64,000 nucleotides of DNA from an uncultured Cellulophaga sp. (GTDB lineage: Bacteria > Bacteroidota > Bacteroidia > Flavobacteriales > Flavobacteriaceae): contig CANLOV010000003.1 in NCBI GenBank assembly GCA_947492955.1, forward strand, positions 124,001 to 188,000. Direction: 5' to 3'. The notes below the pieces were generated by a model. It was given only the letters and a program-made list of their open reading frames with translations. It made no database searches and was not told the origin of the DNA. The position numbers and the translations under genes are program-made. The number at the start of each line of letters is the position of its first letter. Position 1 is the stretch's first letter. Shown piece after piece: positions 42,114 to 51,519 of this stretch.

Positions 42114-45100
42114 ATGAGTTTTTTAAATTCTGTATTAAAAGCGTTTGTAGGAGACAAGGCAAAAAAAGACGTTAAAAATTTACAGCCATTAGTAGGTAAA
42201 ATAAAAGCTTTTGAACAAGAACTAGAAAGTATTAGTAATGATGAGTTACGTAATAAAACAATAACTTTTAAAGCTACTATAAAAGAAAACTGTAAAGACG
42301 TTAATAATAAAATAGAGGCTTTACTAGAAGAAGTAAAAACATCTACAGATATTGACCGCAACGAGGAAATTTATACTCAGATAGATAAGTTAAAAGAAGA
42401 AGCTTACAAAATATCTGAAGATACATTAAATAATATTTTACCAGAAGCTTTTGCTGTGGTAAAAGAAACGGCTAAACGTTTTACCAACAACACTACAATT
42501 ACCGTTACTGCTTCTGAGTACGACAGACAACTTTCTGGAAACAATAACTATGTTAACCTAGATGGAGACAATGCCATTTGGAACAACTCTTGGGATGCCG
42601 CTGGTAAAGAAGTTACTTGGGACATGGTACACTACGATGTACAATTAATAGGTGGTATTGCATTGCACCAAGGTAAAATTGCAGAAATGCATACTGGAGA
42701 AGGTAAAACTTTAGTAGCAACACTTCCTGTGTATTTAAATGCCCTAACGGGGAACGGAGTACACTTAGTAACTGTAAACGATTACCTTGCTAAAAGGGAT
42801 AGTGCATGGATGGCTCCAATATTTCAGTTTCATGGTTTTACAATAGATTGTATAGACCATCACCAGCCAAACTCAGAAGGTAGAAAAGCAGCTTATAATG
42901 CAGATATTACTTATGGTACTAACAATGAATTTGGTTTTGATTACCTAAGAGATAATATGGCACATACGCCTGGTGATTTAGTACAGAAACCACATAACTT
43001 TGCTATCGTAGATGAGGTAGATTCTGTTTTAGTAGATGATGCCCGTACACCATTAATTATTTCTGGTCCCGTACCACAAGGAGATCGCCATGAATTTAAT
43101 GAGCTTAAACCAAAGGTTAGTGATATTGTACAGAAACAAAGGCAATACTTAACAGGCCTTTTATCAGAAGCTAAAAAACTAATTGCTTCTGGCGATACTA
43201 AAGAAGGTGCTTTTTTATTATTAAGAGTACACAGAGGTTTACCAAAAAATAAAGCTTTAATAAAATTCTTAAGTGAAGAAGGAATAAAACAACTACTTCA
43301 AAAAACAGAAGGATTTTACATGCAAGATAATAACCGAGAAATGCCAAAGGTAGATGAAGAGTTATTATTTGTAATTGATGAAAAAAACAATCAGATAGAG
43401 CTTACAGATAAAGGTGTTAATTATATATCAGGAGATAAAGACGAAGATTTCTTTATATTACCAGACATTGGTATTGAAATTGCTAAAATTGAGAACCAAA
43501 ACCTTGATATTGAAGAAGAAGCAGAACAAAAAGATATTTTATTTAAAGACTTTAGTGTTAAGAGTGAGCGTATCCATACCATGAGTCAATTACTAAAAGC
43601 ATACACTTTATTTGAGAAAGATGTAGAGTATGTTGTAATGGACAATAAAGTAATGATTGTAGACGAACAAACGGGTCGTATCATGGATGGTCGTCGTTAT
43701 TCAGATGGTTTACACCAAGCTATTGAAGCAAAGGAAAATGTAAAAATTGAAGCATTAACACAAACATTTGCTACAGTTACTCTACAAAACTACTTTAGAA
43801 TGTATGGTAAATTGGCAGGGATGACAGGTACTGCAATTACAGAAGCTGGTGAGTTCTGGGAAATATACAAACTAGATGTTGTAGAAGTACCTACCAATAG
43901 GCCTATTGCCAGAGATGACAGAAATGATTTAATCTATAAAACAAAGCGAGAAAAATATAATGCAATTATAGACGAGGTTACCAAAATATCGCAAGCTGGC
44001 AGACCTATATTAATTGGTACTACCTCTGTAGAAATATCAGAACTTTTATCTAGAATGTTAACCATTCGTAAAGTACCACACAATGTATTAAACGCTAAAT
44101 TACACAAGAAAGAAGCAGATGTAGTTGCAGAAGCTGGTAATGCAGGAGTGGTAACTATTGCAACCAATATGGCAGGTAGAGGAACTGATATTAAATTATC
44201 CAATGCTGTTAAAGATGCTGGTGGTTTAGCAATAATCGGTACTGAAAGACACGATTCTAGACGTGTAGACAGACAGTTAAGAGGTCGTTCTGGTCGTCAG
44301 GGAGACCCAGGAAGCTCTCAATTTTACGTTTCTTTAGAAGATAACCTAATGCGTTTATTTGGTTCTGATAGGGTTGCTAAAATGATGGATAAAATGGGGC
44401 TAGAAGAAGGAGAAGTTATTCAGCATTCAATGATGACTAAATCTATAGAGCGTGCGCAGAAAAAAGTAGAAGAAAATAACTTTGGGGTTCGTAAACGTTT
44501 ATTAGAATATGATGATGTAATGAATGCTCAGCGAGAAGTTGTTTATAAACGTAGAAGACACGCATTACAAGGAGAGCGCTTACAAGTAGATATTGCTAAT
44601 ATGATATATGATACTTGTGAAGTAATAGCCGATACAAATAAAGGTGCTAATGATTTCAAAAATTTTGAGTTTGAGCTTATTAAATATTTTGCAATTACAT
44701 CTCCTATATCAGAAGAAGAATTTACTAAATTAAGCAGCTCAGAAATAGCTACTAGAATATACGACACTAGCTATAGTCATTACAAAGAAAAAATGGAACG
44801 TAATGCCGCTACTGCCTTCCCTGTAATAAAAAAGGTATACGAAGACAATGGTAATAATTACGAACGTATTGTTGTTCCTTTTACAGACGGAGCAAAATCT
44901 TTAAATGTGGTTACCAATTTACAAAGCGCTTACGAAAGTAATGGTAAAGAATTAATAACTGATTTTGAAAAAAATATTAGTCTTGCCATTATTGATGATT
45001 CTTGGAAAACTCATTTACGTAAAATGGATGAGTTAAAACAATCTGTACAATTAGCTGTACACGAACAAAAAGACCCACTTTTAATCTACAAATTTGAAGC

Positions 45101-45476
45101 TTTTGAGCTTTTTAAGAGTATGATAGAGAAAGTAAACAAAGAAATAGTTTCTTTCTTATTTAAAGGTGAACTACCAACAGAGAATCCTAATGAAATACAA
45201 GAAGCTAGGAATGTTCGTAGACCTAAGGAAAATATACAAACAAGTAAAGAAGAAATTCCTAATAGTGATGAACTAGCGGCGCAAAACAGAGCTGCAGGAC
45301 AACAAACACAGGCAAGACCACAAGTAACAGAAACAATAGTTAGAGAAAAAGCCAAAATTGGCAGAAACGATAGGGTTACTATTAAAAATGTAATGTCTGG
45401 CGAAAGTAAAAGTGTTAAATACAAGCAAGCAGAGCCTTTAATTACAAAAGGAGAATGGGTGCTGATTGAGGAATAG
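42114..45476 (+). CDS. secA: Preprotein translocase ATPase SecA
   Basis: At 1120 residues this is longer than E. coli SecA (901), as usual in Bacteroidota. Motifs: MHTGEGKTLVATLP with Walker A (about 192-197), VDEVDSVLVDDARTPLIISG, TGRIMDGRRYSDGLHQA, AGRGTDIKL, and QLRGRSGRQGDPGSSQF. An insert follows the preprotein-binding region near residue 330-480. The C terminus ends VKYKQAEPLITKGEWVLIEE and lacks the zinc-binding CxCx8CH tail. SecA drives Sec-dependent export, which feeds the many signal-peptide proteins in this window. It is monocistronic with a strong terminator. Confidence 0.96.
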   Translation: MSFLNSVLKAFVGDKAKKDVKNLQPLVGKIKAFEQELESISNDELRNKTITFKATIKENCKDVNNKIEALLEEVKTSTDIDRNEEIYTQIDKLKEEAYKISEDTLNNILPEAFAVVKETAKRFTNNTTITVTASEYDRQLSGNNNYVNLDGDNAIWNNSWDAAGKEVTWDMVHYDVQLIGGIALHQGKIAEMHTGEGKTLVATLPVYLNALTGNGVHLVTVNDYLAKRDSAWMAPIFQFHGFTIDCIDHHQPNSEGRKAAYNADITYGTNNEFGFDYLRDNMAHTPGDLVQKPHNFAIVDEVDSVLVDDARTPLIISGPVPQGDRHEFNELKPKVSDIVQKQRQYLTGLLSEAKKLIASGDTKEGAFLLLRVHRGLPKNKALIKFLSEEGIKQLLQKTEGFYMQDNNREMPKVDEELLFVIDEKNNQIELTDKGVNYISGDKDEDFFILPDIGIEIAKIENQNLDIEEEAEQKDILFKDFSVKSERIHTMSQLLKAYTLFEKDVEYVVMDNKVMIVDEQTGRIMDGRRYSDGLHQAIEAKENVKIEALTQTFATVTLQNYFRMYGKLAGMTGTAITEAGEFWEIYKLDVVEVPTNRPIARDDRNDLIYKTKREKYNAIIDEVTKISQAGRPILIGTTSVEISELLSRMLTIRKVPHNVLNAKLHKKEADVVAEAGNAGVVTIATNMAGRGTDIKLSNAVKDAGGLAIIGTERHDSRRVDRQLRGRSGRQGDPGSSQFYVSLEDNLMRLFGSDRVAKMMDKMGLEEGEVIQHSMMTKSIERAQKKVEENNFGVRKRLLEYDDVMNAQREVVYKRRRHALQGERLQVDIANMIYDTCEVIADTNKGANDFKNFEFELIKYFAITSPISEEEFTKLSSSEIATRIYDTSYSHYKEKMERNAATAFPVIKKVYEDNGNNYERIVVPFTDGAKSLNVVTNLQSAYESNGKELITDFEKNISLAIIDDSWKTHLRKMDELKQSVQLAVHEQKDPLLIYKFEAFELFKSMIEKVNKEIVSFLFKGELPTENPNEIQEARNVRRPKENIQTSKEEIPNSDELAAQNRAAGQQTQARPQVTETIVREKAKIGRNDRVTIKNVMSGESKSVKYKQAEPLITKGEWVLIEE

Positions 45477-45491
45477 AAAATTTATCAAGGC

Positions 45492-45527
45492 AAAAAAAAG
45501 GGATTTATTAATAAATCCCTTTTTTTA
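45492..45527 (+). terminator. Terminator of secA
   Basis: A near-perfect palindrome: AAAGGGATTTATT pairs with AATAAATCCCTTT, with A residues before and T residues after. It starts 16 nt after the secA stop. Confidence 0.9.
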
Positions 45528-45581
45528 TTATATCCTATATTAAATTAACGTTAAAATTAATTTTATTAGACTATAAATTAA

Positions 45582-45603
45582 AATATTAAACAAGTTTAAT
45601 ATT
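45582..45603 (-). terminator. Perfect palindrome, minus-strand terminator candidate
   Basis: AATATTAAAC (45582-45591) and GTTTAATATT (45594-45603) form a 10-bp stem around two bases. On the minus strand it is followed by TTAATTTAT. No annotated minus-strand gene needs it except the tiny frame at 45622, so it supports a short minus-strand transcript. It could instead be an operator. Confidence 0.4.
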
Positions 45604-45621
45604 ATCTTGCACTTACTTTAT

Positions 45622-45687
45622 TTAAAGTGAGTTTGCCCCACAATCTTCACAAGAACAACTTTTTGCATCTATTTTACGTAGGTACAT
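45622..45687 (-). CDS. Possible 21-residue cysteine-rich peptide
   Basis: The frame encodes MYLRKIDAKSCSCEDCGANS plus L, with a CxCxxC cluster and no membrane segment. A CxCxxC cluster in such a short frame is not expected by chance from AT-rich DNA, and the downstream palindrome at 45582-45603 could end its transcript. I know of no matching family and see no strong promoter. A small RNA or a chance frame are alternatives. Confidence 0.3.
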   Translation of the reverse strand: MYLRKIDAKSCSCEDCGANSL

Positions 45688-45742
45688 AAATGTATTTTTT
45701 ATAGAATTATAAAGAAACTCCCCATTCTTTCTACTTTTTATG

Positions 45743-45757
45743 GGAAAAAATTTTTCC
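45743..45757. promoter_or_regulatory. Palindrome upstream of the histidine kinase
   Basis: GGAAAAAATTTTTCC is a 15-bp near-perfect palindrome 31 bp before the kinase ATG. It may be a regulator site or an intrinsically bent promoter segment. Confidence 0.3.
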
Positions 45758-45788
45758 GCCTAGTTATTTAGGTTTTATTAGTATTAAA

Positions 45789-46994
45789 ATGAAAAAAGAA
45801 GGTAAGTTACGCCAACAAAATAAAGATAGTATTATACTTAAAGTAAACTATTTTTCTTCAATCTCTAGTCTTGTTATGGGGGTTGCGTGTTTATTTTTAT
45901 TAGACATTTATAAAGTAATTCCGTTAGTATTTATTGCACATGCTATCATTAATTGCTGTAATGCTATACTCTATAAAAAACATAAAAAATTTGAACTTTC
46001 TTATAATATAAATTCCATCTCATCTTTAATTGGGAGTTTTATTATTATTCTTTTTAGCGGAGGTATTAATAGCCCATTTATATTTATTTTAGCCATTATT
46101 GTTTTTGCTGCGTACACAACCAATAAATTTTACGGAAAAAAATACCTGTATCTTGTTATAACAGCTGTAGTAGCCATTTTTGGTTTAAGTATATCTGGAT
46201 ACCCTATAGAAAATGTTGTTCCAGAAACCTCTAAAAGTATCTTTAGCTTTCTAAGTATTATGTATTCTGTATACATATTAGGTGCAATTTTTGGTAAAAA
46301 TTTATCTAACACACATTACAATCTATACCAAAGTAAAAAAGAATTAGAAAAACAGCACAGAGTAAAAGAAGTTTTATTAAAAGAAATACACCATAGAGTA
46401 AAAAATAACTTACAAACAGTATCTAGTTTATTAAACTTACAATCTAGAAATATTAATGATGAACAGGTAAAGTATTTAATGAAGAGTAGTCAAAATAGAG
46501 TTGTATCTATGTCTATAATTCATGAAATGCTATATATGAGAGAAGATTTTTCTAAAATTGAATATAAATCTTATGTAGAAGAATTAAGTACATACTTAAT
46601 AAATTCTATGAAAGGGATAAACAATAAAATAAAGCTTAATTTAGATATAGACGATATAAAACTAGATATAGATACAGCTATACCACTAGGTCTTTTAATT
46701 AATGAAACGGTAAGTAATTCTCTTAAATACGGAATTAAAGATGATACTGAAGGTGAAATTAATATAGCTTTAAAAAAAGGTGCTGAAAAAGACTATATTT
46801 TAAATATTGGTGATAATGGTGTTGGTCTTGCCGAAGATATCTCTTTTAGCAATACTAAAACACTAGGATTAAAGTTAATGCATAATTTAACCAGACAACT
46901 GAAAGGCTCCATTACTCAAGATAGTACCAAAAAAGGCACTAATTATTCTATAAAGTTTCAAGAAATAGGACAACCTTTCCCTTCTTTAAATTAG
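45789..46994 (+). CDS. Membrane histidine kinase (HisKA_2 type) without adjacent regulator
   Basis: This 401-residue protein has five or six N-terminal membrane helices (about 18-180), a short coiled coil (KKELEKQHRVKEVL), and a HisKA_2 phosphoacceptor region with the motif KEIHHRVKNNLQT (His about 202). The HATPase part shows the N box LINETVSNSLKYG and G1 box IGDNGVGL. The substrate-sensing domain seems to be the membrane helices themselves; no periplasmic domain is seen. This kinase type usually pairs with a response regulator of LytTR or REC-only kind, but none is encoded here. It is followed, in the opposite strand, by the secreted-peptide array. Confidence 0.88.
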   Translation: MKKEGKLRQQNKDSIILKVNYFSSISSLVMGVACLFLLDIYKVIPLVFIAHAIINCCNAILYKKHKKFELSYNINSISSLIGSFIIILFSGGINSPFIFILAIIVFAAYTTNKFYGKKYLYLVITAVVAIFGLSISGYPIENVVPETSKSIFSFLSIMYSVYILGAIFGKNLSNTHYNLYQSKKELEKQHRVKEVLLKEIHHRVKNNLQTVSSLLNLQSRNINDEQVKYLMKSSQNRVVSMSIIHEMLYMREDFSKIEYKSYVEELSTYLINSMKGINNKIKLNLDIDDIKLDIDTAIPLGLLINETVSNSLKYGIKDDTEGEINIALKKGAEKDYILNIGDNGVGLAEDISFSNTKTLGLKLMHNLTRQLKGSITQDSTKKGTNYSIKFQEIGQPFPSLN

Positions 46995-47011
46995 AAGTAA
47001 AAAAGGATTTA

Positions 47012-47125
47012 CTACTTACGAACCCTAACTCTAATTGGTTTTACCTGCTTTCTATTTTTAAACTTAGAAAGTACATATACTAATGAAACTGTAAAAAAGA
47101 CTGAAAATAAAATACTTGTTACCAT
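47012..47125 (-). CDS. 37-residue single-helix peptide coupled to the secreted-peptide gene
   Basis: ATG at 47125, only 2 nt after the stop of the gene at 47128. The peptide has one helix (TSILFSVFFTVSLVYVLS) and a basic tail (KFKNRKQVKPIRVRVRK). The 2-nt spacing predicts coupled translation with its neighbour. The other two copies of the array have no such partner. No family is known. It resembles small anchors or immunity-type peptides in shape only. Confidence 0.5.
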   Translation of the reverse strand: MVTSILFSVFFTVSLVYVLSKFKNRKQVKPIRVRVRK

Positions 47126-47127
47126 AA

Positions 47128-47352
47128 CTATGCTAATTTAGATTTACTTTTTTTAGTTGTAAAAGATAAAGCTCTATTTATTCTGTGATTCTTGTGCTTA
47201 TAAATACGAGCGATATTATTTTCTTTTTTTGTTTCTACTTTATTAAAACTAGTTGTTATACTAACTTCTTTTTCAGAAGTATTTTTAACATCTTGTGCTT
47301 TAGCACTAATTCCTAATATTAAAACAAAAAATAAGGTTGTAATTAGTTTCAT
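47128..47352 (-). CDS. Small secreted basic protein, copy A of a three-gene array
   Basis: The protein has 74 residues from the ATG at 47352; the in-frame ATG at 47364 is rejected because the two paralogs begin at the matching codon (MKLITT, MKAIIT, MKIVAT). A signal peptide ends ISAKAQ (about 20). The mature part has about 54 residues with strong positive charge: a variable acidic/threonine part, then the conserved core KENNIARIYKHKNHRINRALSF and tail TTKKSKSKLA. The core is shared with copies B and C. No family is recognised. A 37-residue peptide follows. Confidence 0.75.
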   Translation of the reverse strand: MKLITTLFFVLILGISAKAQDVKNTSEKEVSITTSFNKVETKKENNIARIYKHKNHRINRALSFTTKKSKSKLA

Positions 47353-47372
47353 GGTTGTAATCATTGGTTACT

Positions 47373-47380
47373 CAAATTTA
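47373..47380 (-). promoter_or_regulatory. -7 promoter element of copy A
   Basis: TAAATTTG on the minus strand fits TAnnTTTG and sits 20 nt before the ATG. The identical element occurs at the same distance before copy B, within TAAATTTGAGTAAC. Confidence 0.6.
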
Positions 47381-47405
47381 CTTCCCACTTCTTATTAACC
47401 AACCC

Positions 47406-47529
47406 AAAAATCGTTTAAGAACCTATATTTTTCGCTGTCTAACAAAAAAACAGATAAAGTGAATATATTATCCGACGAAGTTATTAAGTGTAAAATATAC
47501 ATCATCGATTTAATTTGTTTTTAATCGAT
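47406..47529 (-). repeat. 124-bp upstream block, copy A
   Basis: This block aligns without any gap to 47988-48111 and 48602-48725. The part from 47428 is about 86% identical to copy B by hand count. Shared features: AAAAAtCG at the gene-proximal end, TCTAACAAAAA, AGTGAATA, and an outer hairpin ATCGATT/AATCGAT (47504-47510 with 47523-47529). It begins about 26 bp upstream of the -7 element, so it is placed like an activator-binding region. Confidence 0.85.
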
Positions 47530-47709
47530 AATTATACTTTTAGATTTCTTTTAATAGAATAAAACAAATGATTGAAAGCCTTTATATTTTGTAGAAATTT
47601 TAATTACTCTATAAACGAGTAATTACTTTTATGCTATTAATAGTTAGGAAAGAAAAATATTTTTTATAATAAAACTTAATTGCTGCAGATAAAACCAATA
47701 CTATATGGT
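47530..47709. other. Gap between block A and copy B
   Basis: No gene is seen. A 9-bp hairpin TAATTACTC/GAGTAATTA lies at 47601-47625, and AAAACCA/TGGTTT at 47691-47711 overlaps the copy B stop codon. Either could end copy B transcripts; neither has a clear T run. Confidence 0.45.
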
Positions 47710-47934
47710 TTAAACTAATTTTGCTTTATTTTTTTTAGTTGCAAAAGACAAAGCTTTAATTACTCTGTAATTTTTATACTTATATAAACGAGCAACATTA
47801 TTTTCTTTTTCTAATTTTAGTTCTTTTACTTTTACCTCTTTAGTTACTTCCTTATTTAAAGAGTTTTTAATGTCCTTAGCTTGTGCTGTAATTCCTACTG
47901 ATAAAATGAATAATAAAGTTATAATTGCTTTCAT
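47710..47934 (-). CDS. Small secreted basic protein, copy B
   Basis: This 74-residue protein has a signal peptide ending ITAQAK (about 20). The mature part has a lysine/valine-rich lead (TKEVKVKELKLE), the core KENNVARLYKYKNYRVIKALSF and the tail ATKKNKAKLV. It is closest to copy C in the core and lead (KELKLEKENNVARLY shared) and close to copy A in its promoter. The conserved core and near-constant length argue for a functional secreted product rather than a decaying gene. A TAAATTTG element lies 20 nt upstream. Confidence 0.75.
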   Translation of the reverse strand: MKAIITLLFILSVGITAQAKDIKNSLNKEVTKEVKVKELKLEKENNVARLYKYKNYRVIKALSFATKKNKAKLV

Positions 47935-47954
47935 GGCTGTAAAATTTTGTTACT

Positions 47955-47962
47955 CAAATTTA
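47955..47962 (-). promoter_or_regulatory. -7 promoter element of copy B
   Basis: TAAATTTG on the minus strand, 20 nt before the ATG, at the same distance and with the same flank as in copy A. Confidence 0.6.
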
Positions 47963-47987
47963 CTTCTGTTTCCAGATTCAAAAGCTT

Positions 47988-48111
47988 AAAAACCGTTTAA
48001 AACAGCCTATTTTTCGGTATCTAACAAAAAAACAGACCAAGTGAATATTTTGCTCGATGAAATTTTTAAGTGTAAAATATACCTTATCGATTTAATATGT
48101 TTTTAATCGAT
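47988..48111 (-). repeat. 124-bp upstream block, copy B
   Basis: This is the middle of three gapless copies. The hairpin ATCGATT (48086-48092) / AATCGAT (48105-48111) is identical to that of copy A, and TTTTTCGGTATCTAACAAAA is identical to copy C. Confidence 0.85.
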
Positions 48112-48325
48112 ATCTGTGTAGATAGGTATTTAATAAAAAGCTCGCTTTAGTACTAATAATGGTATTAGCATACTTATAATTTTATAAAAAAATAGAGCAA
48201 TAAAATATATTGTTACTGTAAAAGAACTTAGTAAACAACTAACTAAAAGAATATAAAAAGGAAGGTATTTAAGTTATCTTATATGAAGATGTACGATAAC
48301 TAATAAAAAAGAGAAGATTGTACTA
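48112..48325. other. Gap between block B and copy C
   Basis: No gene is seen. AGTTATC (48272-48278) pairs with GATAACT (48295-48301), a hairpin 25 bp after the copy C stop and a weak terminator candidate. The rest is AT-rich spacer. Confidence 0.4.
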
Positions 48326-48547
48326 TTAGGCTAATTTTGCTTTATTTCTTTTTGTTCTAAAAGATAATGCTTTTGTTACTCTATAGTTTTTAAACATATA
48401 TAAACGAGCTACGTTATTTTCTTTTTCTAACTTTAATTCTTTTACATTTACTGTTGTAGCAACTTCTTCTATATTCTTTTTAATCTCTTGCGACTGTGCT
48501 GAGAGTCCTATTAAAAATGTGAATATTATTGTGGCAACGATTTTCAT
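48326..48547 (-). CDS. Small secreted basic protein, copy C
   Basis: This 73-residue protein has a signal peptide ending LSAQSQ (about 20). The mature part is EIKKNIEEVATTVNVKELKL, then the core EKENNVARLYMFKNYRVTKALSF and tail RTKRNKAKLA. It is the first gene of the array in transcription order. Its promoter is less similar to the other two: the -7 reads TTACTTTG (48569-48576) instead of TAAATTTG. Together with the lower identity of block C, this suggests that C is the oldest split. Confidence 0.75.
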   Translation of the reverse strand: MKIVATIIFTFLIGLSAQSQEIKKNIEEVATTVNVKELKLEKENNVARLYMFKNYRVTKALSFRTKRNKAKLA

Positions 48548-48601
48548 AATTACATTGTTTTGTTACAACAAAGTAATATCGAGCACAAGCATATCTTATT
48601 C

Positions 48602-48725
48602 AAAAATCGCTCAAGACCTCTTATTTTTCGGTATCTAACAAAAAGATAGGTGAAGTGAATAATTTGTCCGACAAAAGATTTTAAACCCAAATCTAACTTA
48701 ACGATTGATTGTGTTTTTAATCGGT
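48602..48725 (-). repeat. 124-bp upstream block, copy C
   Basis: About 75% identical to block B over the 102 bp from 48624 by hand count, still gapless. The outer hairpin is reduced (CGATT/AATCG). The block ends 8 bp from the stop codon of the M23 gene, so it also forms the 3' flank of that gene. Confidence 0.8.
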
Positions 48726-48733
48726 AAAAAGAA

Positions 48734-49405
48734 CTATAACTTTAATAACAAATTAGGGTTAGGGCAGTTTCTTTTATAGTATTCTATATCTTTATTAGCA
48801 GCAACCCCAGGGTAATCGCCTTTATAACTACCTATATCTTTTATAATTTGAAAATGAAGATGAGGAGCATAATTAACATTAACAGCTATTTCTCCTAAAG
48901 AGCCTAGCTCCTCTCCTTTTATATATTTCTTTCCTATATATAAACCTTTTAAAGACTCTAATGACAAATGCCCATATAGAGAATAAAAAGTAATGCCTTT
49001 AATTGTATGTTTTAAAATAATAGTAGGACCATAATCTCCTTTTGTTGCATTATTTTTAAAACTATGCATTTCTCCATCTACAGGAGTAATTACTTTAGTG
49101 GCTTCTGGCGCCCAAAAATCTAGGGCTATATGAATATTTCTTCCTGCTTTGGAGAAATTAGTATTCATTGTATATATACTACGTTGTTCTAAATAGCCTC
49201 CATAAGCTACAATAGCATTATTAGCCTTTGTTTCCTTATTTATGTATTCCTGACATATATAGGGGTCGTTTATAGCTATATTACTTATTTCTTTATTATG
49301 AATAGATAAATCTATAGGCGTGTAACTATCTAAAGAAATAGAACTGTCTAAAATACTGATTGGAGTAGCAGATAAACTATTAAGAATTTTTTCTAAAGTA
49401 TTCAC
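48734..49405 (-). CDS. M23-family metallopeptidase, no signal peptide
   Basis: This 223-residue protein has an M23 (LytM-type) domain: GRNIHIALDFWAPEATKV with the first histidine/aspartate pair, SLYGHLS, and APHLHFQI. All zinc elements appear. The N-terminal 80 residues have no signal peptide or membrane helix, so how it reaches peptidoglycan is unclear; it may act on another substrate or be cytoplasmic. M23 domains of this form without export signals also occur in non-murein contexts. It lies upstream of the secreted-peptide array on the same strand with only 9 bp to block C. Confidence 0.8.
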   Translation of the reverse strand: MNTLEKILNSLSATPISILDSSISLDSYTPIDLSIHNKEISNIAINDPYICQEYINKETKANNAIVAYGGYLEQRSIYTMNTNFSKAGRNIHIALDFWAPEATKVITPVDGEMHSFKNNATKGDYGPTIILKHTIKGITFYSLYGHLSLESLKGLYIGKKYIKGEELGSLGEIAVNVNYAPHLHFQIIKDIGSYKGDYPGVAANKDIEYYKRNCPNPNLLLKL

Positions 49406-49531
49406 TTATCAAATATAATATACCTATATAAAAAAATACAAATATTTCTTAATTTGCATTAACAACATTTTAACCATTAATTAGCGTAAGGTTTATACAG
49501 CTATGGTTACTAATACAGAAAACAAAAGATT

Positions 49532-50197
49532 ATGAATTTTTTTAAAATATCGTTAGTAGCAATTCTTATATTTTCTTCTTTCAATTGTGAGTCTAAAAAT
49601 AAAGGCAAAGACAAAATTGTATCAGAGGTAAAATTATCTGAGCAAGATTTACAAAAATATGAAACTGCATATTTTGCTAGTGGTTGTTTTTGGTGCTTAG
49701 AAGCTGTATATGAACATGTAAAAGGTGTAAAAGAAGTAATTTCTGGATATTCTGGTGGCACGGAAAAAAATCCCTCTTACGAACAAGTAGGTCGTGGTTA
49801 CACCAGCCATGCAGAAGCAGTGAAAGTTTATTACGACCCTAAAGTAATATCATTTAAAGAGTTAGTAGATGTATATTATGCATCTCATAACCCAACCACG
49901 GTTAATGGACAGGGTCCAGATTTAGGCCCGCAATATAGATCTGTTGCTTTTTATAAAAATGATAATGAAAAGAAAATTATTGAGGATTATATCGCCAAAT
50001 TAGAAAAGGAAAAAGTATATGATACCCCTATAGCCACTGAGGTAACTAAATTTTCTATTTTTTATGATGCGGAAGACTATCACCAAGATTACGAAAAATT
50101 ACATCCCAACAACCCATATATTAGAAATGTATCTGTTCCTAGATTAAATAGGTTTAAAAAGAAATTACCACACCTTTTAAAAGAAGGTAATCATTAA
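49532..50197 (+). CDS. msrA: Peptide methionine sulfoxide reductase MsrA, predicted lipoprotein
   Basis: This 221-residue protein begins with a lipoprotein signal and lipobox SFNC (Cys19). The MsrA domain starts near residue 45: YFASGCFWCLEAVY with the catalytic cysteine at 52, then GYSGG, YEQVGRG(Y)TSHAEAV, GPDLGPQYRS and HQDYEKLHPNNPY. It reduces methionine-S-sulfoxide. The envelope location is a prediction from the lipobox; it would then need an electron donor on that side of the membrane. Confidence 0.92.
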   Translation: MNFFKISLVAILIFSSFNCESKNKGKDKIVSEVKLSEQDLQKYETAYFASGCFWCLEAVYEHVKGVKEVISGYSGGTEKNPSYEQVGRGYTSHAEAVKVYYDPKVISFKELVDVYYASHNPTTVNGQGPDLGPQYRSVAFYKNDNEKKIIEDYIAKLEKEKVYDTPIATEVTKFSIFYDAEDYHQDYEKLHPNNPYIRNVSVPRLNRFKKKLPHLLKEGNH

Positions 50198-50217
50198 TAG
50201 CACAGCTATTCTTTTTA
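50196..50217 (+). terminator. Terminator of msrA
   Basis: AATAGC and GCTATT form a short stem around ACA, followed by CTTTTTAT. It begins within the stop codon. Confidence 0.65.
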
Positions 50218-50235
50218 TAAAATAAAATAGATTAA

Positions 50236-51519
50236 TTAATCCAATGCTATTGTACTATATTCTGCATTAATAGTAATAGATTTTCCTGAACTATTATTTA
50301 TATAAAAACCTTTATGCAACGTTGTATTACCTATACTTTTTGTTGCATTTAAATTTATACATGATGATGCCTTTAACTCTGAATTACTCCCATTCACTGC
50401 TATTGAACAAGGAGTTGAAGGTACCTCGCATTTAAACTCTGCGTTGTAGAGTGATACATTTAAATCTGTAAAAGCATTAGATATAGAATTTACATCTAAA
50501 GAGCCAAACTTATTTTTAATTAAAGCACTATCCATAAGATAACCTATGGTAACATCAGATGATGTAGTATCTAAAATTAAATTCTTTACTTCTATTAAAT
50601 TTACTTTTTCGGCATAATCTGCTTGTAACTTTCCATAGTTCCATTCTTGAACCGTTACTGGTGAATAAGAAGCCACAATAATTGTTTTTTCTCCGTCTAT
50701 AGCAAATGCCTGCAATTTAGAATAAGATAAAGTTGCATCTATGTTCTTTGTATTTTCTGCAAGTTTTACATTTCCATGACGTACATTCATTTTTATTTTT
50801 AAAGCCTTTGGCATTTTTATTTTAATCACCTTTTTTACTTCATAAGTGTCTTTATTAGGCATAGGATTTAATTCATTACTTCCCTGTATCTCTTGCATTT
50901 TCATTACCTCCTTCATCTTTTCCTCTACACGTATCATTTTGTCTTGTATATCCGCGTGTACTTTTTTATCAGCTTCAACATTTTTTATATAATGCTCTAT
51001 TTCTTTCTTATGAGTATCACTAAAACTCTTATCAAAATCTTGCTGCCATTTTTTTAAATATGATTCCCCTTCTTTTTTATACATTTCATAATCAAAAACT
51101 GGCATTGGCGTTGGCACAGACAATATTAATTCTGGAAAATCAGGAATTTCTACATTTAAATCATTTAGATTACATACTGCATTTATAGCAACTGGGTTCC
51201 AAACATTAGCGCAGTTAGTACTTATTTTTATTTTTTTGCTATTCCCAATTATCTCAATAAGATTTTCTTTAAAATAAGCAGCTATTTCTTCTTTAGCTAC
51301 CCCCGTAACCTCTACAATAGCTTCTACTGACACCTTGTTCTCTTTCCATGTTTCAAACACAATATCTGAACGATTAATATCTATCTCTAAAATAGTGTTA
51401 TCATTTACATTAAAACTTTCTTTATAGTTTTTCGTATGCTTTTGACAGTAAGCGTCTGCCGCTACAAAACATATAAAAAATATGATTGTATTAAATATTA
51501 TTCTATATAATTTGTTCAT
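50236..51519 (-). CDS. DUF4097-like secreted protein controlled with an ECF sigma factor
   Basis: This 427-residue protein has a signal peptide ending DAYCQ. The N-terminal part has short beta strands (FNVNDNTILEIDINRSDIVFETW), a helical charged linker (about 170-240, HKKEIEHYIKNVEADKKVH) and a C-terminal beta-helix-like repeat of short strands (LQAFAIDGEKTIIVA, FKCEVPSTPCSIAVNGSNS). This resembles DUF4097/GIN domains. It is the last gene of an ECF-sigma operon, overlapping the anti-sigma-like gene by 17 nt. Role unknown; probably an envelope-associated effector or sensor. Confidence 0.7.
   Translation of the reverse strand: MNKLYRIIFNTIIFFICFVAADAYCQKHTKNYKESFNVNDNTILEIDINRSDIVFETWKENKVSVEAIVEVTGVAKEEIAAYFKENLIEIIGNSKKIKISTNCANVWNPVAINAVCNLNDLNVEIPDFPELILSVPTPMPVFDYEMYKKEGESYLKKWQQDFDKSFSDTHKKEIEHYIKNVEADKKVHADIQDKMIRVEEKMKEVMKMQEIQGSNELNPMPNKDTYEVKKVIKIKMPKALKIKMNVRHGNVKLAENTKNIDATLSYSKLQAFAIDGEKTIIVASYSPVTVQEWNYGKLQADYAEKVNLIEVKNLILDTTSSDVTIGYLMDSALIKNKFGSLDVNSISNAFTDLNVSLYNAEFKCEVPSTPCSIAVNGSNSELKASSCINLNATKSIGNTTLHKGFYINNSSGKSITINAEYSTIALD

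Follow-up and report, generated by a model that had tools for sequence, protein, structure and literature searches.

Why would three tandem genes for tiny proteins each be preceded by the same 124 bp of non-coding DNA? The question is raised by a locus of an uncultured Cellulophaga sp. (Flavobacteriaceae; assembly GCA_947492955.1), within a window of 64,000 nucleotides, which is the whole stretch of DNA analysed here (contig CANLOV010000003.1, positions 124,001 to 188,000). Copy A (47128..47352, 74 amino acids (aa)), copy B (47710..47934, 74 aa) and copy C (48326..48547, 73 aa) all lie on the minus strand, in agreement with the initial annotation, and their products combine a signal-like start, a variable middle and a conserved tail; the mechanically called open reading frame (ORF) of copy A begins four codons further out, at 47364. 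Judged by its sequences, this is a lineage-wide family of peptide genes, undescribed so far, with a shared multi-site control region, and we lean slightly towards reading the three genes as an array of lineage-specific tiny exported peptides under the control of a LytTR two-component system.

The control blocks of copies A, B and C (47406..47529, 47988..48111 and 48602..48725, minus strand) are each 124 bp long, contain six half-sites, and score 66.6, 68.3 and 74.5 bits, respectively, with the block model, a sequence-only model built from aligned blocks in which these three copies are included. Both the positions and the gapless alignment had been recognised in the initial annotation, whose 86% (A-B) and 75% (B-C) over 102 bp come close to the identities measured over the whole block, 103/124 (83%) for A-B, 92/124 (74%) for B-C and 89/124 (72%) for A-C. 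The next 124 bp outward share 48, 37 and 35 of 124 positions (28-39%), and shuffled blocks reach a mean of 38.8 identities and a maximum of 55 (1000 shuffles). Since the outward flanks match no better than shuffles, the edges of the block are sharp and its identity lies far above chance. Copies A and B also have a candidate Bacteroidota -7 promoter element, TAAATTTG on the coding strand (47373..47380 and 47955..47962, minus strand), located 20 nt ahead of the ATG in both, which bears out the equal promoter spacing noticed earlier. The tandem order of the copies could also come from a recent simple duplication that dragged the promoter along, with no functional block. This explanation is practically untenable, because the block precedes family copies across many genera while the flanks diverge; blocks upstream of orthologs were precisely what the initial annotation had proposed to look for as the test of such a duplication.

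This wider conservation was followed in an alignment (A3) of 62 of the 74 non-redundant upstream regions, 12 being left out by eye as ill-fitting, which spans 131 columns with few gaps. Across genera, it is the half-sites that are conserved rather than every base of the block, so the strict non-coding conservation claimed at the outset holds for the sharp-edged blocks of the window and, beyond it, only for the half-sites. The CG of half-sites 1, 2, 3, 5 and 6 is found in 48, 59, 61, 59 and 62 of the 62 rows, and site 4 reads CACTTnATCC. In copy B, the half-site CGs lie at 4, 24, 57, 97 and 118; the period is thus 20 within the pair of sites 1 and 2 and 21 within that of sites 5 and 6, a distance of 33 separates site 2 from site 3, and on the other strand site 4 is paired with site 3 at about 21. 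PMC6193735 describes LytTR sites as repeats of 9 bp with 11-13 bp between them, located upstream of promoters; the pair spacing of 20-21 bp fits this site layout. The half-site spacing is accordingly that of LytTR direct repeats, placed upstream of what is a candidate promoter only. At the expected column of the 62 rows, the LytTR consensus G[AT]TNA[AG] occurs in 51 at site 1 and 22 at site 2 and, on the other strand, in 32 at site 3 and 49 at site 4, while sites 5 and 6 diverge from it.

In the own genome, the block model gives full-length matches only at the three genes (E<=4.4e-18), the next match being partial (1.8e-3). Across 11 family-positive and 5 family-negative genomes, block matches at E<1e-8 sit upstream of family genes, one of which is degenerate (L168); a strong block (2.1e-19) stands at the extreme end of contig G203:C31, its gene, if any, lying beyond the contig. 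The searched loci hold ten block-type copies outside the alignment, and all ten are preceded by a block (E<=6e-8), including a row dropped from the alignment (L174) and a copy with no obvious signal sequence (L162). Among the 12 dropped rows, scored afterwards, eight match the block at E<=6.1e-4, two of them weakly or partially (L048:4516 and L048:9262), and four do not match (L039, which is leaderless, L073:4541, L075:5219 and L076:1615). The loci of further relatives have at least one block match in 10 of 10 cases. With blocks upstream of orthologs in many genera, the common regulator proposed for the three genes gains support. Weak partial matches elsewhere in the own genome, such as one (L173) beside TsaE-like and PorX-like ORFs (by eye), were judged to be due to chance.

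Could the block act as RNA, or as an attachment site, instead of as a set of protein-binding sites? The CGATT/AATCG hairpin that had been described at its outer end does not survive the comparison, as its elements are half-sites 1 and 2: over the 62 blocks, neither pairing nor covariation rises above the level of shuffles, with 64.2% of the cells paired against 62.9 +/- 1.3 in shuffles, a value reached by 96 of 500 shuffles. RNAalifold proposes just five pairs, all of them weak, in another part of the block (between half-sites 2 and 3; -0.74 kcal/mol), and the two Rfam matches in 45000-50500 are both under the gathering scores. A leader RNA or riboswitch was rejected for want of any supported RNA structure, and so was an integron attC or other attachment site, for which a conserved folded single strand would be expected. 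Nearer to the start codon, a putative dyad appears in the last 45 nt before the ATG of many relatives, the mean longest stem over the 62 regions being 6.4 against 4.2 in shuffles. In many non-Cellulophaga copies, a palindrome surrounds the presumed -7 element, its arms varying between species yet staying complementary.

The distribution of the family was established with a starting profile made from the three window proteins and 299 Flavobacteriaceae genomes, including the own genome (G000). Matches at E<=0.01 occur in 82 of the 299, and the 49 genomes with a best E<1e-6 are those counted here as family-positive, a further 33, whose best E is 9e-4 or weaker, being left uncounted; a positive genome has between one and eight matches. 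In 40 fetched stretches of 8-20 kb plus a 22-kb piece of the window, 102 family copies were collected over 41 loci, one of them a leaderless paralog of the own genome. A scan of GTDB genome contigs with the three window proteins alone gave no matches. A deeper alignment retained 76 loci among 316 confirmed stretches of GTDB records, whose hosts include Maribacter, Zobellia, Arenibacter, Cellulophaga and Eudoraea, as well as Kriegella, Saonia, Zeaxanthinibacter, Sediminicola and Muriicola. This alignment (A4, 79 columns) was used to probe the limits of the family in 23 chosen neighbouring genomes: one of them, G057, is family-positive, and the remaining 22 have no match below E 1e-4. Of these, 21 match weakly (1.9e-4 to 0.1), mainly at the signal-sequence columns, and a few such matches extend into the tail columns (e.g., G250 at 0.039 and G288 at 0.068). 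An order-wide scan of 296 genomes gave matches at E<=1e-4 in three genomes outside the family, all of them within columns 1-55 of 79, that is, at the signal sequence.

The proteins themselves have a constant architecture. The signal-like start follows the consensus MKxIxTLIFVLFxGxxAQAQ; the middle is variable and acidic (median 32 residues, charge -3), and after it comes a conserved basic tail (median 27 residues, charge +9), the medians coming from the 62 of 78 non-redundant proteins that the script could split. The tail consensus is VARLYKFKNSRVKKALSFxTKRNKAKLA. Export may be surmised from the signal-like N-terminus of the alignment together with a predicted helix at residues 2-20 in the AlphaFold2 model; the model also places a short helix at 56-62 and leaves the middle at low confidence. 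The ratio of non-synonymous to synonymous substitutions (dN/dS), a comparison suggested in the initial annotation, is 0.31-0.50 over the whole gene between window copies and lowest in the tail (0.13-0.36), these being short sequences; in the middle it is 0.60-1.7, where the sequences are again short and some values saturated. The claim that the proteins belong to no described family has held up, since nothing in Pfam or NCBIfam exceeds a cut-off for the window copies and PADLOC and PHROGs give weak matches only: in PADLOC, copy A alone of the three matches, to Cas8a (E 0.0019, 15.6 bits). A plasmid search for the peptide at E<=1 found none, solved structures gave only non-significant matches (chloroplast ribosomal protein L24, E 0.11 and 0.16), and a literature search, run with general terms, turned up no paper on the family. 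The same tail also occurs in paralogs of 53-59 aa that lack the leader, encoded by the own genome (G000:C1:122.9 kb) and by five further genomes that were fetched. The own paralog (57 aa; L039:6905-7078, contig C1) has no block and is above no Pfam cut-off.

Which regulator, then, would read the block? The candidate (L133) was picked for its receiver, which we take to resemble those paired with HisKA_2 kinases. It is a REC-LytTR response regulator encoded at G000:C3:65070-65777, unlinked to the array and beside a TPR-HisKA_2 kinase; the ORF listed next to it encodes a homologous kinase in 14 of the 15 regulator loci that were fetched, and only in G256 (L145) does it not. Orthologs of the regulator with at least 78% identity occur in exactly the 49 family-positive genomes of the 299, homologs of 56-75% identity occur in 9 of the 250 negatives, and a gap down to 43% follows. 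The array has a kinase of its own as its convergent neighbour (45789..46994, plus strand), with HisKA_2 and HATPase domains (Pfam) and six membrane helices predicted by simple hydropathy (two relatives have five stretches), and this array-side kinase is homologous to the regulator-side one. Two kinases and one regulator of the own genome match at the cut-offs applied (6 of the 28 and 9 of the 39 candidates of a first look, respectively, being scored). The positives that lack a kinase ortholog are G203, whose contig ends in the array, and G057.

We regard it as fairly probable that this regulator acts through the block. The other possibility, that the block is bound by a different LytTR regulator or by another kind of protein, is tentative, and draws on the 15 LytTR domains of the own genome and on the fact that the positives are nearly one clade. 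Against it, the named regulator is found in exactly the family-positive genomes, and the one other LytTR regulator compared (L125, at least 60% identity) does not follow the family, its presence being scored in 35 of the 40 positives and in 12 of the 20 chosen negatives. A SecA tree was built for 61 genomes (41 positives and 20 chosen negatives, 7 of them chosen for having the regulator); all 41 positives and 7 of the 20 negatives have the regulator, and 40 of the 41 positives fall on one side of a branch (Shimodaira-Hasegawa-like approximate likelihood ratio test support of 97), with G057 outside. The link between regulator and peptides that can be drawn from co-retention is, thus, suggestive.

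Under LytTR control, the array could work as follows, with peptide export, kinase input, contact between regulator and block, and action of the tail being steps that we infer. A stimulus at the inner membrane would be read by the multi-helix HisKA_2 kinase beside the array, by the TPR-HisKA_2 kinase beside the regulator, or by both, and the phosphate would be handed to the REC-LytTR regulator. This protein would then bind each block at its six phased half-sites, taking these two at a time as direct repeats, and would switch on the copies together. The peptides would be exported, their signal sequence removed, and the cationic tail of about 27 residues would act on a conserved partner; leaderless paralogs and tail peptides of phages (see below) might engage this partner, or a related one, from inside the cell. 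With a regulator, a candidate operator, a candidate output and two candidate input kinases all nameable from sequence, the circuit is directly testable. For most LytTR regulators of Bacteroidota, no target is known to have been described.

Peptide circuits of the agr and com type are known from Gram-positive bacteria. Systems such as agr, comCDE and blp combine a small exported peptide, a nearby multi-helix membrane kinase and a REC-LytTR regulator, and ahead of the peptide promoter they have direct repeats spaced by about 21 bp; the array as proposed here would share this design. In contrast to these, the array has a HisKA_2 kinase, a regulator unlinked to it, six half-sites per block instead of two, and peptides with a presumed Sec-type signal sequence and a near-invariant tail, and sensing of the peptide is here hypothetical. 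No AgrB- or ComA-like processing exporter was recognised by eye in clusters shared by at least 4 of the 41 loci, no profile search having been made. HdrRM and BrsRM, LytTR Regulatory Systems described in PMC6193735, similarly have promoters preceded by direct repeats with 11-13 bp between them; these systems pair the regulator with an inhibitory membrane protein in one operon, whereas here there is a receiver domain and a kinase neighbour. The likeness to agr and com would suggest an autoinducing peptide, whose exported tail is sensed by the adjacent kinase in a positive loop. The six predicted helices of that kinase, its orthologs in 47 of the 49 positives, the LytTR-type block, the several copies and the pre-pro layout, with its opposite charges of middle and tail, would all suit such a loop. 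We consider it unlikely, however, as the tail is near constant across genera, unlike the agr and com pherotypes, the kinase is found without the family in 6 of the 299 genomes and has only two helices in at least one positive, and leaderless paralogs would not fit.

The tail is also found in phages. A set of 50,697 phage records was searched three times at the protein level, with E limits of 1, 10 and 10, and each search gave the same 15 records and no other, eight from the Maribacter forsetii phages Molly and Colly and seven from the Cellulophaga phages phi38:1, phi40:1 and Calle; with the window protein as the query, only the eight Maribacter phage records were found (E 0.06). The E-values are weak individually (best 2e-4), and six phage proteins have profile scores of 33-57 bits; given the host specificity and these scores, the matches are unlikely to be due to chance. 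The Cellulophaga phages Nekkels, Omtje and Ingeline, named in PMC8776804, are not among the matches, so not every phage of these hosts carries the tail. IMG/VR added four environmental contigs, two with the same tRNA layout, and three matching the isolates in length. PHROG 26162, a phage family with no named function and uninformative on export or block, gives weak matches to host copy B and to phage members (best E 9.2e-4, worst 0.39). The Mollyvirus proteins Colly1_6 and Molly1_7 are phage genes with the whole exported layout of the host family, namely signal-like start, VEVIEM stretch and tail. The Cellulophaga phage and environmental versions, among them the hypothetical proteins gp072 of Callevirus phi38:1 and Calle1_29, share the tail, lack the signal sequence and have 37-50 aa. 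In one environmental contig, the leaderless tail gene adjoins GroEL- and GroES-like genes (L317 / L322:2888-5454, by eye), and another (L315:796-5945) has 14 tRNA genes and an ORF that looks like a recombinase (by eye) in the vicinity of the tail gene, an arrangement resembling that of phi38:1.

Maribacter phage Colly_1 has, in addition, a candidate control sequence. Two TCCGTTTAACGTTTT repeats 21 bp apart lie just upstream of its exported family gene (L318:1990-2125); this 15-nt exact repeat upstream of Colly1_6, which contains TCCGTTTAACG, compares with a longest repeat of 12 in 2000 shuffles. The two TCCGTTTAACG copies rank 4 and 5 of 12,582 positions with the host site-1 matrix, and 8 and 9 with that of site 3. 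Whether host peptides and phage tails share a target is, in our judgement, an evenly balanced matter. We more doubtfully suggest that the tail is a lineage-specific handle on a conserved target of Maribacter, Zobellia and Cellulophaga, taken over separately by unrelated phages (Molycolviridae, the Callevirus group and at least two further environmental phages), in one case together with LytTR half-sites. If so, the phage copy with half-sites would answer to the same signal as the host array, and Bacteroidota would have a peptide control circuit of which phages carry copies. Among the 50,697 records, no phages but those of two of the host genera were found to have the tail, so its target presumably matters during the infection of marine flavobacteria; the result also offers a starting point for the hypothetical genes of phi38:1 and other cultured phages.

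A small protein with a basic tail, an acidic middle that could neutralise it and several gene copies might instead be a cationic antimicrobial or toxin-like secreted peptide, an idea already raised in the initial annotation. That the same tail is common to leaderless paralogs and phage peptides speaks against this, as do the purifying selection on the tail in the window copies, their mature part devoid of cysteine, and the lack of an immunity gene recognisable by eye, and we find it improbable.

Several observations weigh against LytTR control of an exported peptide array. The half-sites fit the LytTR consensus only partly, and any of the 15 LytTR domains of the own genome could be the binder of the block. 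Five block-like matches have no family ORF in the fetched stretch: one in a family-negative genome (L105:1501-1611, in G024, E 8.8e-8), one in G258:C1 (L169, 6.3e-6), two in G212:C55 (L170, 1.4e-5; L171, 5.2e-5) and one in G222:C15 (L172, 3.3e-4). Conversely, the block model has no match upstream of six leaderless paralogs, nor, in full, in the phage loci, where the TCCGTTTAACG copies of Colly_1 come only at ranks 32-33 with the site-2 matrix and 47-48 with the site-4 matrix, and match neither the site 5 nor the site 6 matrix. As 40 of the 41 placed positives form one clade, inheritance explains much of the co-retention, whose control is a single LytTR regulator, L125. The kinase is a looser companion, with orthologs (E<=1e-62) in the 47 positives and also in six negatives, and the array kinase at L071:2777-3670 has two membrane helices. 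The AlphaFold2 prediction is mostly of low confidence, with a mean predicted local distance difference test score of 70 and a predicted template modelling score of 0.25.

The remaining genes of the loci recur to different degrees (labels by eye, except that the kinase, M23 and MsrA genes of the window were labelled by Pfam). Either msrA (21), secA (13) or both are present in 29 of the 41 loci, a kinase cluster in 19, an amidohydrolase in 17, and an M23 gene and an M14 peptidase in 16 each. In the window, the M23-peptidase-like gene lies upstream of copy C (48734..49405, minus strand) and is probably a syntenic neighbour outside the peptide mechanism. Adjacent family genes have no intervening ORF of at least 90 aa in 30 of 61 pairs and such ORFs in the other 31, and 22 of the 30 block-facing neighbours that could be scored are divergent, pointing away from the block. 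The inserts are unrelated operons that differ between species, a pattern from which one could derive an integron-like recombination or insertion module, made up of gene and block, that collects cargo operons. Such a module is most improbable: the block has no supported fold, no integrase was recognised by eye among the shared gene clusters (no profile search was made), nearly half of the pairs have nothing inserted, and homologous recombination between the repeats would account for the cargo. Unrelated operons have gathered between family genes in L049, L055, L061, L063 and L071; the insert of L049 has arsenic-type genes, and those of L071 and L061 have a Crp-like regulator with a carboxymuconolactone decarboxylase (labels by eye apart from two proteins that Pfam was used to check).

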